Source: Pontibacter russatus (GTDB taxonomy: Bacteria > Bacteroidota > Bacteroidia > Cytophagales > Hymenobacteraceae). From it: DNA of 64,000 nt. Shown here piece after piece: positions 7,421-61,702 of the stretch. The stretch spans positions 1,922,001 to 1,986,000 of the forward strand of contig NZ_CP047984.1 in assembly GCF_009931655.1 (NCBI RefSeq). The letters run 5' to 3'. Both the position numbers and the translations under genes were made by a program. The notes under the pieces are model-generated. The model did no database searches and was not told the DNA's origin. It saw only the letters and a list, made by a program, of their open reading frames with translations. Every line of letters begins with the position of its first letter. The first letter of the stretch is position 1.

Positions 7421-7567
7421 TGGCTTGATTATTAAATTGCTGGTTGATGATTGCTGGTTGCTATATATACCACCATGTCTGAGACCAACCATTTAACCAT
7501 ATAGCCATTTAACCATTCAACAATTCAACAATTAGCAAACAGTAACTAACTACCAGCAGTCAACAAA
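7421..7567. repeat. Repeat-word intergenic region (ATTTAACCAT family)
   Basis: The sequence contains two copies of CCATTTAACCAT (7489-7500 and 7505-7516), two adjacent TTCAACAA words, and left-hand GATTGCTGGTTG words of roughly complementary composition. It also carries CATGTCTGA...CAACCATT, shared with the hemC/delta' gap. It has no coding potential; it probably belongs to the same class of intergenic repeats. Confidence 0.5.
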
Positions 7568-24791: not shown

Positions 24792-25276
24792 ACCTCCCCC
24801 TGCCCCCTCCTAAAAACAGGAGAGGAACTTCAGATATTTTCAAAAGCCGCAGTTATCTTTTGCAGTACTACTTGAGGTTGCTCAAATATTTCGCTGTTTC
24901 TGATGCGGATAACTTTGTAGCCAAGGTGCTGCAGTTCTACATCACAGGTTTTAGTGTCCTGAACCGAGCCATCCACCTCAACAACCAGTTTTTCCGCTGC
25001 ACAATAAAAATCAACGATACAGCTCCCATTACTATGCTGCCGCCTGCACTCTCGCCCACCTAACTTATGCTTCCTCAGGAGTCGCCACAGTTCCTCTTCC
25101 GCTGGCGTTTGGTTATTACGCAGCAATGCGCGCTACAGCCTCAAACCGGGCAAGCTATGTAACTGATCTTTCCGCATATAATCGTTCTTTGCTCTCTAAC
25201 ACAACCCGATCATATGCCTGTTCCACTCATACAAACAAAAACCCCCTCCTGTTATTAGGAGGGGGCAGGGGAAGGT
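24792..25276. repeat. Inverted-repeat cassette enclosing a DUF559 gene
   Basis: A 31-bp arm at 24792-24822 (begins ACCTCCCCCTGCCCCCTCCT) is repeated in inverted orientation at 25246-25276 with 2 mismatches. Each arm contains its own small hairpin (CTCCT...AGGAG). The only gene inside is the DUF559-type protein at 24830-25126. The left end is close to the DUF4834 promoter and the right end is in the first codons downstream of carB, overlapping its stop region. Confidence 0.7.
24830..25126 (-). CDS. DUF559 (Vsr-like endonuclease fold) domain protein, short and divergent
   Basis: This 98-residue protein opens with the family's MLRNNQTPAEEELWRLLRKH and continues GRECRRQHSNGSCIVDFYCA and KLVVEVDGS. 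DUF559 proteins share the PD-(D/E)XK nuclease-like fold of very short patch repair enzymes. Here the block after VDGS is about five residues shorter than usual and lacks the usual His and the Tyr-Asp...Arg ligands (it reads VQDTKTCDVELQHLGYKV), so catalytic ability is doubtful. The gene is enclosed by a 31-bp inverted repeat and looks like a small inserted cassette. Confidence 0.75.
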   Translation of the reverse strand: MLRNNQTPAEEELWRLLRKHKLGGRECRRQHSNGSCIVDFYCAAEKLVVEVDGSVQDTKTCDVELQHLGYKVIRIRNSEIFEQPQVVLQKITAAFENI

Positions 25277-39326: not shown

Positions 39327-40424
39327 CTATATATGCGCGATGCCCACATCCGGCACTTTCACCTTCTCCTCACGGCTCAGGCCCGATAACACTTCGATGT
39401 TGATGCCGTCTGAGAGGCCGGTCTTGATCATGCGCTTCTCAAATTTCTGCGGGGCCACCTCCACTTCCACAAAAGGTGCCTCCTTGTCGAACTGCAGCAT
39501 GCTCTCCTTGATGGCGATGACCTTCTCGCGCTTGTCCAGCACAATGTCGGCGTTGGCGCTGTAGCCCGCCCGGATAAAGTCTTTCTCGTCCAGCTGTACC
39601 TGCGCCCGAATCGGGAATTTGATGGAGCCTTCCTCGTCCACGCCTTTCGGCGCTATATACTCCAGTTTGGCATCAAACACACGGCCTTCGATGGCGCCGA
39701 TCGTCAGCACCAGGTCCATGTTCTCCTTCAGCTTGCCTACCTCCGATTCGTCGATCTCGCCTTCAAACACCAGGCTGCGCATATCGGCCACCGTGGCGAT
39801 GGTGGTGCCCTCGTTGAAGTTGTTGCGCTCGATGATGGAGGTCCCCACCTTTACGGGCACATCCAGCAGCATGCCGTCGATGGTGGAGTATACCAGGTTG
39901 GAAGACTGCTGGCCGCTTTTGCGGGAGGAGCCCTCGCGCACCAGTTGCAGGTTGTTTTCCGCGGCCTGCATAGCCTCCTGCTTCAGGGCGAAGTCTGCCT
40001 TGTATTTGCGGTATTCCTGCTCCGGTATCACCTTGCGTGCATAGAGTTGGTCGTAGCGGGCCAGTTCGCGCTTCGCCTCCTCAAAGTTGAGCTTGGCCGT
40101 CTGCAGGCTGGTTTCGGCGTTGTTCACGCTCACCATGTTCGGCACAATCCGGATTTTCGCCAGCAGTTGCCCCTTCTTCACCACCTGCCCGGCCTCCACG
40201 TGCAGCTCCTCCACAATACCCGACACCTGCGACTTCACCTGCACCTCCTTGCGCGGCACAATAGAGCCGGTGGCCACCGTCTTTTTCACAATGTCTGTCT
40301 CAAACGGGGCCTCCGTTTTATATACCACGGGGTCGGTGTTCGCCTTCTTGTAAAAATAGTAGCCCAGCCAGCCAGACAAGCCCAAGAACACCAAGACGAA
40401 AACCCCAAGCAATACCTTTTTCAT
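39327..40424 (-). CDS. Efflux periplasmic adaptor subunit (MacA/HlyD type)
   Basis: The 365-residue membrane-fusion protein has an N-terminal anchor (VLLGVFVLVFLGLSGWLGYYF). A biotinyl-lipoyl-like pair is seen in GSIVPRKEVQVKSQVSGIVE and HVEAGQVVKKGQLLAKI, with a coiled-coil hairpin (about 105-165) and a beta-barrel region (AGYSANADIVLDKREKV). It would link the inner-membrane ABC pump encoded upstream to an outer-membrane channel. No TolC-like gene is present here. It is the last gene of the operon ATPase-permease-permease-(four-helix bundle)-adaptor. Confidence 0.93.
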   Translation of the reverse strand: MKKVLLGVFVLVFLGLSGWLGYYFYKKANTDPVVYKTEAPFETDIVKKTVATGSIVPRKEVQVKSQVSGIVEELHVEAGQVVKKGQLLAKIRIVPNMVSVNNAETSLQTAKLNFEEAKRELARYDQLYARKVIPEQEYRKYKADFALKQEAMQAAENNLQLVREGSSRKSGQQSSNLVYSTIDGMLLDVPVKVGTSIIERNNFNEGTTIATVADMRSLVFEGEIDESEVGKLKENMDLVLTIGAIEGRVFDAKLEYIAPKGVDEEGSIKFPIRAQVQLDEKDFIRAGYSANADIVLDKREKVIAIKESMLQFDKEAPFVEVEVAPQKFEKRMIKTGLSDGINIEVLSGLSREEKVKVPDVGIAHI

Positions 40425-40858
40425 AATTCATTTATCAATTAACAATTATCATTTATCAGTTCGGATCCCCCTTACTTTTCGGATGCTGGCGAAAAGCATT
40501 CTGCCCAATTCATCGGCGTCTGCATATAGGCTCCTATCTTGTTTTTCGTCGTTAAAATTTGTGTCTTTCAGCAAGTCTAACCAGTACTTTGTTTCCAGGC
40601 ATCCTTTATAGGCGATGGACAACTTTGCTGAAAATTCCGCATCAGAAATAGCTCCATTTGCCTCGGCCACGTTTGCGCCGATGGATGTTCCGCTTCGCAG
40701 CAACTGTTTTGCAAGCACAAACTCTCTTTTTTCCTGCCCCAGATACTGGTGCGCTTTCACCACTCTTGTGGCGGAAGCATAAGCTTTCGCATATAGCACA
40801 TTCTCTTTTCCATTTATCATGAACGGTACTTGTTAAATGATCAATGATAAATGAATTA
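40424..40858. repeat. Inverted-repeat cassette with a four-helix-bundle gene
   Basis: TAATTCATTTATCA (40424-40437) and TGATAAATGAATTA (40845-40858) form a perfect 14-bp inverted repeat. Extra TTTATCA and TTAAC words lie just inside each arm. The left arm touches the start codon of the adaptor gene and the right arm covers the stop codon of the permease gene. The interior holds only the four-helix-bundle gene. Confidence 0.7.
40449..40820 (-). CDS. Four-helix-bundle protein (23S rRNA IVP-type)
   Basis: This 123-residue, mostly helical protein belongs to the TIGR02436 family. The signature is REFVLAKQLLRSGTSIGANVAEANGAISDAEFSAKLSIA. Relatives were first seen in intervening sequences of bacterial 23S rRNA genes and are also related to Avd of diversity-generating retroelements; the cellular function is unknown. 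It sits inside an ABC efflux operon between a permease and the adaptor, enclosed by an inverted repeat, and its DNA is less GC-rich than its neighbours (about 42% in a 60-base sample). A similar gene occurs at 61243. Confidence 0.9.
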   Translation of the reverse strand: MINGKENVLYAKAYASATRVVKAHQYLGQEKREFVLAKQLLRSGTSIGANVAEANGAISDAEFSAKLSIAYKGCLETKYWLDLLKDTNFNDEKQDRSLYADADELGRMLFASIRKVRGIRTDK

Positions 40859-42106
40859 CTCGTCGCGGAGCGCCACCACGGGGTTTACGCGGGCGGCTTT
40901 GGTGGCCGGAATCAGCCCAGCCAGGGCACCGGTGAAAACCAGCAGGACGGTGGCCGTGACGGCGATGCCCAGATTTACCTCCGGAATGCCGAAGAAGCCC
41001 GCCTGCACATCGAATTTACGCATGAAGTACTCTATCAAAGCGATAATGCCGGTGCCTGTGAGCAGCCCCATATAGCCTGCGAAACCCGTGATGACGATGG
41101 ATTCCTGGATGATGAGGCTGATGATGGACCAGGGCGTGGCCCCCAGCGCTTTGCGCACCCCGATTTCCTTCGTCCGCTCCTTCACCACAATCAGCATGAT
41201 GTTGCCCACCCCGATGATGCCTGCCAGGATAGTGCCGATGCTCACGAGCCAGCTGAACCCGGCAATGCCCGCGAACAACCCCTGCACCTCCTGAAACTCT
41301 TCTTCCACGTTCGCGGAACCAAAGGCTTTCAAATCTTCGGGGGCTACCTGATGGCGCTGCATCAGCAGGGCCTTCACCTTGTCTTCTATCACGGCGGCTG
41401 GCACACCGGGCTTCGGGATGAGGGCCATAAAGCCAACCTTGTTCACCTCGTTATATGTCTGCTGCAGCGTAGTGTGCGGTATATAAATCACCTTGGCGTC
41501 CTCCATCACATCCTCGCCTTTGCCCAGCGGCTCAAAGGTGCCCACCACCTGAAAGTAGCTGCCCTTGATGCTGATGTACTTGCCAATCGGCTTTTTTTCT
41601 CCCGGAAATAGCACCTCCAGCACCCGCGGCCCCACCACGGCCACTTTACGTTTCTCCTGTATGTCAATGCCGTTCACGAAGCGGCCGGTGGTTACCTTCA
41701 GCGGCTTCACCGAAAGCAGTTCAGGCGTCTCGCCATTCACGGTAAAGGCAGAGCTCTTGTCTTTGTAGTTCACCGTAAAGTCGCCCTGCAGCTGGTTGCT
41801 GGGTGCCACCACGCCTACCTCGGGAATATTGGCCTTGATGGCGGCCACGTCGTCATTCGTCATCTGGATGAAACGCCCGGCATTCAGGCCCATATAGGGT
41901 ACGCTGGTACGCTGCGTCCAGACAAAGACCGCGTTCTTGGCAATGTTGAATTCGCTCGTGATGCCGTTCTCCAGCCCTTTGCCCGCGCCCAGCAACACCA
42001 CCAGCATAAAAATGCCCCAGAACACACCGAAAGCCGTCAGCGCCGTGCGCAGCCTGTGCTTCTTCACGGTGTTATATATCTCGGTCCATTTATCGATGTC
42101 GATCAT
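40856..42106 (-). CDS. MacB-like ABC transporter permease (second copy)
   Basis: The 416-residue permease has an N-terminal cytoplasmic segment and first membrane helix (LRTALTAFGVFWGIFMLVVLL), a large periplasmic MacB_PCD domain (about residues 50-270), and three C-terminal helices of the FtsX domain (WLVSIGTILAGIIGVGNIML, FAGYMGLLTGTGIIALIEY, VTATVLLVFTGALAGLIPA). KERTKEIGVRKALGATPWSI is the FtsX signature loop. It is a paralog of the permease upstream and presumably forms a heterodimer with it. Confidence 0.92.
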   Translation of the reverse strand: MIDIDKWTEIYNTVKKHRLRTALTAFGVFWGIFMLVVLLGAGKGLENGITSEFNIAKNAVFVWTQRTSVPYMGLNAGRFIQMTNDDVAAIKANIPEVGVVAPSNQLQGDFTVNYKDKSSAFTVNGETPELLSVKPLKVTTGRFVNGIDIQEKRKVAVVGPRVLEVLFPGEKKPIGKYISIKGSYFQVVGTFEPLGKGEDVMEDAKVIYIPHTTLQQTYNEVNKVGFMALIPKPGVPAAVIEDKVKALLMQRHQVAPEDLKAFGSANVEEEFQEVQGLFAGIAGFSWLVSIGTILAGIIGVGNIMLIVVKERTKEIGVRKALGATPWSIISLIIQESIVITGFAGYMGLLTGTGIIALIEYFMRKFDVQAGFFGIPEVNLGIAVTATVLLVFTGALAGLIPATKAARVNPVVALRDE

Positions 42107-59807: not shown

Positions 59808-61220
59808 TTATATGTGGATGGCGCGGTTCTCCGTCGCGGCCAGGCAAGCCTCTTTCATGGCTTCGGCGTAGGTGGGGTGCGCGTGGCTCATGCGGGCCAC
59901 ATCCTCGGCGGAGGCGCGGAACTCCATCGCTGTTACCGCTTCGGCTATTAAGTCGGCAATGCGCGGGCCGATCATATGCACCCCAATGATCTCGTCCGTC
60001 TCTTTGTCTGCCAGTACCTTCACGAAACCGTCGGTGTCCATCGAGGCTTTGGCACGGCCGGAGGCTTTGAACGGGAACGAACCAACCTTATAGGCGCGGC
60101 CCTGCTCCTTCAGTTGCTCCTCGGTATAGCCTACGCCTGCCACTTCGGGCCAGGTATAGACCACCCCCGGAATCAGGTTGTAGTTGATGTGCGGCTTCTG
60201 CCCCACGATCTGCTCGGCCACCAGCACGCCCTCTTCCTCGGCTTTGTGCGCCAGCATGGCCCCGCGCACCACGTCGCCGATGGCATATATACCGGGCACG
60301 TTTGTTTCGAGGTGGTCATTTACGGCAATCATGCCGCGCTCGCCCATCTGCACCCCGGCGTTCTCCAGGCCAAGCCCCTCGGTATAGGGTTTGCGGCCAA
60401 CAGATACCAGCACGTAGTCGCCCTCAAATGTCACTGTCTCGCCTTTCGGGTTCTCTGCGGTTACAGTCATCGTTTCGCCAGCATTGGTGGCGCCGGTCAC
60501 TTTGTGGTTGAAGAAGAACTCAAAGCCCAGCGTCTTTTTCAAAATGCGCTGCAGCTCCTTGCCCAGTGCGCGGTCCATGGTCGGGATGATGGAATCGAGG
60601 TACTCCACCACCTGCACCTTGGCACCGAGGCGGGCATATACCGACCCCAATTCCAGGCCAATCACGCCGCCGCCGATGATGATCAGGTTCTTGGGCACCT
60701 CCGTCAGCGTCAGCGCCTCTGTAGATGTGATGATGCGCTTTTTGTCGATGGGCAGGAACGGCAGGGACGATGGCTTGGAGCCGGTCGCGATGATGGCCTT
60801 GTCTGTTTCGATTTGCTGTTCTTTTCCCTCGGCATCGGTAATTCTGATGGTGTTCCTGTTCACGAAAGAGCCAAGGCCGTAGTACGTGTCGATCTTGTTC
60901 TTCTTCATCAGGAAGGCAATGCCATCGTTGTTCGACTTCACCACCTCGCCTCTGCGCTTGATCATCTGCTGGAGGTTCACCTGCAGGTTGTCCAGCTCGA
61001 TGCCATGCTCCTTGAACGTATGGGCCGCATTGTGGAAATGCTCCGAGGAGTCGAGCAGCGCTTTGGAAGGGATACAGCCCACGTTCAGGCAGGTGCCTCC
61101 CAGTACATTGTATTTCTCTATAATCGCGGTTTTCAAGCCCAGTTGGGCGCAGCGTATCGCCGCCACATAGCCCCCGGGACCCGAACCGATAACGGTTACG
61201 TCGTATTTCACTTCGTTCAA
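59808..61220 (-). CDS. lpd: Dihydrolipoyl dehydrogenase (E3)
   Basis: The 470-residue flavoenzyme reoxidises dihydrolipoamide in 2-oxo acid dehydrogenase complexes. It has FAD-binding VIGSGPGGYVAAIRCAQLG, the redox-active disulfide GGTCLNVGCIPSK (residues 41-53), an NAD-binding IIGGGVIGLELGSVYARLG and the dimerisation motif MSHAHPTYAEAM. It follows the E2 gene on the same strand, and the cassette with a four-helix-bundle gene separates the two. Confidence 0.96.
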   Translation of the reverse strand: MNEVKYDVTVIGSGPGGYVAAIRCAQLGLKTAIIEKYNVLGGTCLNVGCIPSKALLDSSEHFHNAAHTFKEHGIELDNLQVNLQQMIKRRGEVVKSNNDGIAFLMKKNKIDTYYGLGSFVNRNTIRITDAEGKEQQIETDKAIIATGSKPSSLPFLPIDKKRIITSTEALTLTEVPKNLIIIGGGVIGLELGSVYARLGAKVQVVEYLDSIIPTMDRALGKELQRILKKTLGFEFFFNHKVTGATNAGETMTVTAENPKGETVTFEGDYVLVSVGRKPYTEGLGLENAGVQMGERGMIAVNDHLETNVPGIYAIGDVVRGAMLAHKAEEEGVLVAEQIVGQKPHINYNLIPGVVYTWPEVAGVGYTEEQLKEQGRAYKVGSFPFKASGRAKASMDTDGFVKVLADKETDEIIGVHMIGPRIADLIAEAVTAMEFRASAEDVARMSHAHPTYAEAMKEACLAATENRAIHI

Positions 61221-61702
61221 GTTAAGAGTTAAAAGTTATGAGTTAAGAGTTGTTCTTTTTTGAAATAAGAATGATGCTACTTAACATCTTTTGCAACTCA
61301 ATACAGTCTTTGTGAATACTTTCAAAGGCTGCTGTTTCAATTAAATTAACTGCTTGTAGCAGTCTTAACCAATAGCTTGTTTCCCGTGCTTCTTTCAGAG
61401 CAATTTGTAGCTTATGAATGAAATCTGGTTTGGATTGCGCCGCTATAGCTTCTTCGGTATTAGCTCCCATAGATGTTCCGCTTCTTACCAGTTGCTTTGC
61501 AAGTATAAACTCCTGCCTTTGGTCTTTTAGGTATAAATAAAGCTTGGTAATCCGGATGGCGAACTGAAATGGTTTTTGAGCTACAATGCTATCAGCCATA
61601 CCTTTATAGTTAAAAGATTAGAGTTAAGAGTTAAAAGTGAATTACGAAAATTTTATGTTTTTTCCGCACTCACTCTTAACTCATAACTTCTAACTCTTAA
61701 CT
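61220..61702. repeat. Inverted-repeat cassette with a four-helix-bundle gene
   Basis: A 31-bp arm at 61220-61250 (AGTTAAGAGTTAAAAGTTAT and 11 more) is repeated in inverted orientation at 61672-61702 with one mismatch. A further related direct copy lies at 61616-61639. The left arm touches the first codon of lpd and the right arm ends 21 bp from the stop of the E2 gene. It contains only the four-helix-bundle gene and is AT-rich (about 35% G+C in a 60-base sample). Confidence 0.75.
61243..61599 (-). CDS. Four-helix-bundle protein (23S rRNA IVP-type), second copy
   Basis: The 118-residue helical protein has the family core QEFILAKQLVRSGTSMGANT, then KLQIALKEARETSYWLRLLQA. It is related to but clearly different from the copy at 40449 (similar at the RSGTS(I/M)GAN centre only). 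It lies between E2 and E3 of the 2-oxoglutarate dehydrogenase complex. AT-rich codon use, unlike the neighbouring metabolic genes, suggests acquisition from elsewhere. Function is unknown; related to Avd and IVP proteins. Confidence 0.9.
   Translation of the reverse strand: MADSIVAQKPFQFAIRITKLYLYLKDQRQEFILAKQLVRSGTSMGANTEEAIAAQSKPDFIHKLQIALKEARETSYWLRLLQAVNLIETAAFESIHKDCIELQKMLSSIILISKKNNS

Follow-up and report, generated by a model that had tools for sequence, protein, structure and literature searches.

Four-helix-bundle genes within protein operons of Pontibacter and other bacteria lie between inverted arrays of seven-nucleotide words

Results

Bracketed genes in the window

The window analysed here is a stretch of 64,000 nucleotides from Pontibacter russatus, in which a small gene for a four-helix-bundle protein separates a MacB-like permease gene from a MacA/RND_mfp-like adaptor gene (Table 1). 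Its 123-residue product scores 97.8 bits against TIGR02436 (cut-off 24) and 93.8 bits against PF05635 (cut-off 33.8). The first-pass annotation of this DNA had placed a perfect 14-bp inverted repeat around the gene, with one arm at the ATG of the adaptor and the other over the permease stop codon, and this description proved exact: TAATTCATTTATCA occupies positions 40424-40437 and its exact complement positions 40845-40858, the left arm shares one base with the adaptor ATG (40422-40424), and the permease TAA (40856-40858) falls inside the right arm. The perfect repeat extends to 28 nt at 82% complementarity. A second bracketed gene of the same family had been reported near 61220, and is indeed present between the SucB and Lpd genes, its protein reaching 105 bits against TIGR02436 (cut-off 24) and 94 bits against PF05635 (cut-off 33.8). 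The two loci had been described as sharing one organisation with unrelated arms, and this holds for the gene and its placement at gene boundaries but not for the arms. Rather than being unrelated low-complexity sequence, these are arrays of 7-nt words; arms of different loci share this grammar of 7-nt units and are therefore not unrelated.

Table 1. Coordinates of the bracketed genes, their arms and their host genes in the window
Feature	Position	Strand	Description	Basis
First element	40424..40858	-	Complete element with PF05635 gene, flanked by permease and adaptor genes	Arms, profile matches, 30 orthologous loci
First element, 5′ arm (gene orientation)	40831..40858	-	28 nt, permease stop codon inside; outer 14 nt (40845-40858) perfect	
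First element, 3′ arm (gene orientation)	40424..40451	-	28 nt, 82% complementary to 5′ arm, inside lag-7 array 40420-40463	
First element, gene	40449..40820	-	Four-helix-bundle gene (S23p/IVP, PF05635, TIGR02436), 123 aa	Profile scores
Upstream host gene	40856..42106	-	MacB-like permease (MacB_PCD/FtsX)	Profile matches
Downstream host gene	39327..40424	-	MacA/RND_mfp-like adaptor	Profile matches
Second element	61220..61702	-	PF05635 element between SucB and Lpd genes	Profile matches
Second element, 5′ arm	61672..61702	-	31 nt, 97% complementary	
Second element, 3′ arm	61220..61250	-	Inside lag-7 array 61216-61254	
Second element, gene	61243..61599	-	Four-helix-bundle gene, 118 aa	Profile scores
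DUF559 cassette	24792..25276		Third bracketed gene (PF04480)	
DUF559 cassette, ORF	24830..25126	-		

When arms of the same geometry were scored at 2,541 positions along the window, the highest values fell at 61260-61285 (45), 24835-24860 (40) and 40460 (30), with all remaining positions at 25 or below. The 14-bp repeat is itself the third longest of seven perfect repeats in the window that are at least 12 bp long with 300-500 nt between their arms. At a threshold of 21/28 the 64 kb hold two arrays with a period of seven (lag-7 arrays) and no other, one in one arm of each element. We also observed a sole lag-8 array above threshold (7485-7540), which lies between two minus-strand ORFs and adjoins the start at 7492, just upstream, and is possibly the scar of an element with an 8-nt word. 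Matches in other genomes to the protein adjacent to this array are 35-61% identical, and most contain internal stops. A defence or phage origin for the four-helix-bundle genes was considered and rejected, as PADLOC and PHROGs gave no family for either window protein and no phage record was found for the related protein L177.

The third bracketed gene of the window, absent from the first-pass annotation, belongs to the DUF559 family (Table 1). Its arms are 34 nt long, 91% complementary and C-rich, and the genome has arm-like sequence at five further positions. Across the genus, 28 of 29 DUF559 loci have inverted arms (median score 74; one locus was dropped from this count), against 5 of 174 controls scoring at least 24, and the arms of these genus loci give no lag-7 signal. 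Bracketing of small genes by inverted repeats is not, then, unique to the PF05635 family. Both kinds of element place a small gene between inverted arms, but those of DUF559 cassettes are REP-like hairpins that are long, alike between loci and without the 7-nt period. The DUF559 cassette follows a REP-plus-gene plan and is of a different kind from the PF05635 elements.

Arms across the genus and beyond

The host genome carries seven PF05635-family genes, all of which have word-like arms by eye with a different word each, and in six of the seven (not L006) the inverted-repeat score exceeds the maximum of 200 shuffles. The family was found in 47 of 50 genomes of the genus, giving 184 matches in total, of which we examined 99, mostly the best-scoring. 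Taking a complementarity score of at least 24 between left and right flanks as detection of arms, 92 of these 99 elements have inverted arms, compared with 18 of 1,584 positions shifted within those loci and 1 of 30 genes for HU, another small family whose loci are orthologous and so not independent. The first-pass annotation had proposed a check of this kind, anticipating an excess of flanking arms whose sequence differs by locus; we find both, and its argument for a mechanism rather than coincidence is supported by the excess over controls. Chance inverted repeats in AT-rich intergenic DNA, for which the AT-richness of the arms is the only favourable point, are refuted by the same controls, and we give that explanation practically no credence.

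Autocorrelation of the pooled arms, computed for lags 1 to 23, peaks only at 7, 14 and 21; the lag-7 values are 0.47 and 0.46 for the two arms and 0.25 for control sequence. Arrays above the periodicity threshold, seen in 55 5′ arms and 74 3′ arms among the 99 genus elements and in 36 and 48 among 110 of the wider set, have a median length of 4.4-4.7 heptads, usually four to five units, an estimate which the threshold itself censors. In the genus, 75 lag-7 arrays fall within the 27.7 kb of the arm zone against 11 in 324 kb elsewhere; the corresponding figures for the wider set are 53 in 30.8 kb and 34 in 471 kb. The arms accompany the gene as arrays of a 7-nt, sometimes 8-nt, word (8-nt units occur in several Flavobacterium loci), and the two arms at a locus usually share one word, in opposite orientations. 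The architecture of an element with heptad arms is well supported.

Beyond the genus, the family is present in 220 of 296 genomes sampled from the window's phylum, which we take to be Bacteroidota, and only 16 of the first 30 loci from there reach the arm score of 24. Among loci from named records, arms were detected at 67 of 80, with 11 of 469 controls reaching the same score, although this set, mostly of Bacteroidota titles with Ignavibacteria, Gastranaerophilales and a few others, over-represents relatives of one query protein. In a second phylum, that of a Gastranaerophilales genome, which we take to be Cyanobacteriota, 103 of 244 genomes have the family. Three short loci were dropped there, and arms were detected at 24 of the remaining 27 (controls, 7 of 162). 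L289 and L226 are one and the same place, so this locus contributes to the set of 80 as well as to the 27, and loci L317-L346, which largely repeat the first phylum set, were left out of the counts. Of 28 plasmid records with a family match, most are cyanobacterial by name, and the plasmid-borne genes, where annotated, are mostly called 'S23 ribosomal' or 'four helix bundle protein'. On a Pseudanabaena galeata plasmid (L420) a four-helix-bundle gene lies between cas6 and cas4, with long GCTAAAA/AAAAGCC heptad arrays on both sides that are apparently direct rather than inverted. A Nostoc edaphicum plasmid (L421) carries a heptad-armed gene of this type in antisense between two annotated ribonucleotide reductase subunit genes.

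Host operons and junctions

With gene strands called by the longest ORF, 86 of the 99 genus elements are co-directional with both neighbours (77 by a stricter rule), as are 116 of 137 elements in the wider set. Among 124 downstream proteins of the wider set there is one cluster of 28, thiolase by eye, and a GroEL-like group of 12 that counts one place (L289/L226) twice; smaller groups, also named by eye, resemble NuoD (following NuoC), the second half of MetH (following its first half) and NusA (following RimP). Core operons acting as hosts include SucB/Lpd, identified by profile, and MraY/MurD, NuoC/NuoD and the position upstream of GroEL, identified by eye. In both Flavobacterium columnare strains of a table in PMC5524665, a four helix bundle gene appears between guanylate kinase and adenylyltransferase genes, grouped with genes called phage elements.

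One element (L007) was considered as an insertion inside a CusA-like RND gene, a reading that we rejected. Open frames are short, at 632-656 aa, in all 35 matches of at least 84% identity and similar, at 639-697 aa, in the five matches of 60-61%, but reach 982-1,515 aa in those of 31-38%. Every one of the 20 junctions read (L187-L206) shows the CusA-like subfamily as two separate genes, and the L007 element therefore lies in a two-gene junction. Six of these junctions hold a full element, ten a scar or other repeat (79-178 nt) and four a spacer (46-50 nt); the other palindromic repeat seen in them is of the GTCATTTCGAGC...GAGATGAC type.

Sites, movement and turnover of the words

Single-linkage clustering of both flanks resolves the 99 genus elements into 14 sites. 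Mapped onto the protein tree, the site labels together require 13 changes, the fewest possible; eight of the sites are single clades, and S1, S2, S4 and S12 are not. Five S2 elements group with S9, so that a second arrival or an exchange at S2 is possible. The sister-clade position of S6 and S8 elements and the likeness of their words imply that an element once moved together with its arms. At the junction of the first element (site S8) we read 30 orthologous loci, out of 38 genomes with a permease match, and found six with a full element, six with what reads as a decayed remnant, mostly of the 3′ arm, and 18 with none; on the permease tree the full, remnant and empty states need 3, 6 and 7 changes, respectively. 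Taken together, the site tree and these junction states indicate that the elements are mostly old residents, inherited vertically for the most part and decaying in place, rather than fresh insertions.

One genome of the cyanobacterial phylum (G862) has 17 family matches, about ten of which are copies of one element. These are mostly 96-99% alike over their shared core (86-90% in the longest matches for L383) and ride in a repeat with 16-bp inverted ends (one mismatch). In copies of this type (L376-L384 and L388) the S23p element has been amplified inside a MITE-like repeat; the family match ends near position 82 in many of them, and L377 has other sequence there in its ORF. It could be argued that the arms are simply the terminal inverted repeats of an ordinary transposon or MITE moved by a transposase in trans. 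The G862 copies do demonstrate that passive carriage occurs, and the sister clades of S6 and S8 indicate that an element plus its arms can reach a new site. However, the ends of the G862 repeat lie outside the heptad arms, and the genus elements have ends that vary from site to site, too much for a single transposase to be likely to recognise them all; nor were recent copies between sites seen among the 99 elements at their 14 old sites. We therefore consider a transposon origin of the arms to be very improbable.

The G862 copies are also informative about the arms themselves. Ten copies have 4, 3 or 2 heptads on the 5′ side, and the five that are comparable on the 3′ side have 4 or 2. That near-identical copies differ by whole heptads is direct evidence that units are gained and lost, presumably by slippage. 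Such differences in unit number would equally be produced if the arms were a mutational by-product without function, the 7-nt arrays growing by slippage and template switching homogenising the inverted copies. Symmetric mismatches in the arms fit this explanation too, as does a proposal, quoted in PMC4679880, that 7 nt reflects polymerase contact. We find it unlikely, though a live alternative, as arrays are concentrated at the gene's two ends in the genus and the wider set alike, their polarity is fixed relative to the gene even when the element is antisense, and the DUF559 cassettes of the same genomes have inverted arms without a 7-nt period.

Turnover of the words can be followed at S1, a thiolase/acyl-CoA dehydrogenase junction (named by eye), where 24 orthologues with the same neighbours display at least four word families by eye and 23 of them, all but L025, have matching arms (score of at least 24). 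Complementarity within a locus and across loci was 31 and 17 at S1, 32 and 19 at S2, and 29 and 18 at S5. The two were not clearly different at S3 (30/28), S4 (14/16), S6 (32/34), S7 (26/27), S8 (21/24), S9 (27/27) and S10 (42/40), and little divergence of the word is the likely reason at these seven of ten sites. At S1 the two arms have switched words together with the element still in its original place, and the same is seen less clearly at S2 and S5. Words do not avoid one another within a genome (mean similarity 16.8 compared with 16.4 when shuffled, 179 of 200 shuffles being at or below the observed value), as strictly separate binding codes might be expected to do.

What keeps the two arms alike

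An alternative that needs careful consideration is that the arms are kept as an RNA stem, which RNase III would cut from the operon transcript, parting the host messages, with the element RNA then discarded. The elements share their gene family and architecture with the intervening sequences (IVSs) of 23S rRNA, which are reported to have a terminal stem of 28 bp and to be excised by RNase III (PMC4990558). The predicted folds of both window elements form a terminal stem, a long one in the second (z -4.4), and the prevailing co-direction of genus elements with both neighbours (86 of 99, or 77 by the stricter rule) also speaks for this explanation. On the other hand, the fold of the first element is no more stable than shuffles (z -1.0), and some elements are antisense. 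Under selection for a stem, single mismatches should be of the G-U rather than the A-C type, but the arms show no excess of G-U, the G-U and A-C counts being 118 and 108 in the genus and 106 and 141 in the wider set. Whole units were permuted in one arm at 34 of 99 genus loci and 18 of 110 wider loci, with 60 permutations each; the median score fell from 21 to 19 in the genus and stood at 16.8 against 17.2 in the wider set. Given that permutation barely changes the median, the shared word explains most of the complementarity. It does not explain all of it, since 12 of the 34 genus and 7 of the 18 wider loci equalled or beat all 60 permutations, and at those loci a paired stem is favoured. The mismatch and permutation tests led us to demote selection on an RNA stem as the sole keeper of the arms, and we rate this explanation as a serious but unlikely one. 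Evidence for exact pairing from identity in register 0 (0.89, against 0.64 at +/-7, in the genus) was also set aside, as that comparison carries a best-diagonal bias and is weakened by the permutation result.

The arms have, in addition, a polarity. G exceeds C in the 5′ arm of 70 of 94 genus elements, with 21 showing the reverse and 3 tied, and of 88 of 92 in the wider set; the first element and four of its S8 orthologues, with a C-rich 5′ arm, have the minority polarity. Nine elements are antisense to both neighbours, and in all seven of these with detectable arms, at three independent sites, the polarity is that of the element's own gene. Polarity thus follows the element gene and not host transcription.

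The protein itself is under strong purifying selection. Median dN/dS was 0.059 over 90 within-site pairs from all sites and 0.07 at S8 (three pairs). Rows with stops and pairs with pS outside 0.05-0.70 were left out of this analysis, and dS is often near saturation. The sole PDB match of the window protein is 2rld (five chains, E 4e-24), and a crystallised Xanthomonas homologue, XCC0516, is reported to be a toroidal homopentamer (PMC4990558).

Discussion

Our preferred account, held tentatively and at a little below even probability, is that these are S23p/IVP-type intervening elements of protein operons whose word-array arms are putative sites for the element's own ring protein. The identity of the element is given directly by its PF05635 gene and terminal inverted arms, here living in protein-coding operons, whereas binding of the arms by protein is an inference. 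The protein encoded by the element, which has homologues that assemble into pentameric rings, would recognise each heptad, and the selection it exerts, aided by slippage, may be what holds both arms on one word. Arm complementarity would then be mainly a by-product of the common word. Lodging between a stop codon and the next start may be tolerated because cutting or binding of the transcript at that position would harm neither cistron. The excess of arms, the lag-7 arrays, the persistence of the 14 sites, the turnover of words, the permutation medians, the polarity, the whole-heptad differences in G862, the low dN/dS, the five-chain 2rld match and the reported homopentamer speak for this account. 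Against it count the lack of word avoidance within genomes, the seven sites where own-arm complementarity does not clearly exceed that across loci, the loci that equal or beat all permutations, the 16 of 30 first-phylum loci, the minority polarity of S8 and the direct-looking arrays of the P. galeata plasmid. At four to five units, an arm could offer one heptad to each subunit, which is an attractive possibility. TRAP reads its triplets in such a manner, one per subunit.

Comparison with the 23S rRNA IVSs of Coxiella, Leptospira and others is instructive. Those described in PMC4990558 share a gene of the PF05635 family, a total length of about 430 nt and complementary arms of about 28 nt with the present elements, and both sit where a break in the RNA is tolerated. 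The present elements differ in lying between protein genes and in having arms of tandem 7-nt words that vary by locus; no Rfam match at the gathering score was found in 20 loci, 14 of them representing the genus sites, and hence no rRNA. The Coxiella IVS ORF is said to undergo reductive evolution (PMC4990558), in contrast to the strong purifying selection seen here. IVP ORFs in 16S and 23S rRNA insertions of CPR bacteria (PMC11270868) belong to the same protein family and occupy several insertion sites, but have rRNA hosts, and heptad arms are unmentioned in the parts of that paper available to us. PF05635 is also said to resemble, in sequence and structure, the Avd protein of diversity-generating retroelements (PMC10053308); unlike the Avd context, no reverse-transcriptase domain was found in 14 proteins, from some of the ORFs between 34518 and 47619 around the first element, that were scanned with Pfam.

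Heptamer repeats have been described independently of this protein family. Those of Xanthomonas (GGGAATC) and Nostoc (GGGGA(T/C)T) form arrays most often of four units that are mostly intergenic (PMC4692102), as are the arms described here. According to the same source, X. campestris has 70 convergent inverted heptamer pairs, arrays lie on average 28 nt from the 5′ neighbouring ORF, and groES is among the associated genes; its main text contains no S23, XCC0516, IVS or helix-bundle term. The homopentamer XCC0516 and the GGGAATC pairs come from the same species, X. campestris. TAACTGA heptamer repeats are reported from Beggiatoaceae, Cyanobacteria and some Bacteroidetes (PMC4679880), and the 3′ arms and scars of S8 are TAACTGA-like (CTGATAA phase, by eye) and lie directly upstream of a start codon, as in that report. 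The Beggiatoaceae repeats differ in being reported as direct, with one inverted case, and terms for four-helix, S23 or rRNA intervening sequences are absent from the text seen of PMC4679880. The unexplained Xanthomonas, Nostoc and Beggiatoaceae repeats look related to the arms described here. No description of heptad arms around PF05635 genes was found in the titles and abstract openings of the open-licence literature, and the architecture looks undescribed.

S23p/IVP genes are said in PMC4990558 to have no known function. They are common, and a 7-nt word that can be read and that evolves makes their function testable by binding or RNA-cleavage assays. These results also place heptad-arm elements inside core operons. 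A broader proposal, which we regard as doubtful though with an appreciable chance of being right, is that the S23p/IVP ring protein recognises a heptad particular to its locus on arrays at both ends of the element, each subunit taking one word much as TRAP takes its triplets, that this word system extends across Bacteroidota and Cyanobacteriota, and that such elements are the unrecognised source of the heptamers of Xanthomonas, Nostoc and Beggiatoaceae. If this is the case, then many of those heptamer repeats would be arms or scars of such elements, and one explanation would be offered for several repeat families that have been described separately.
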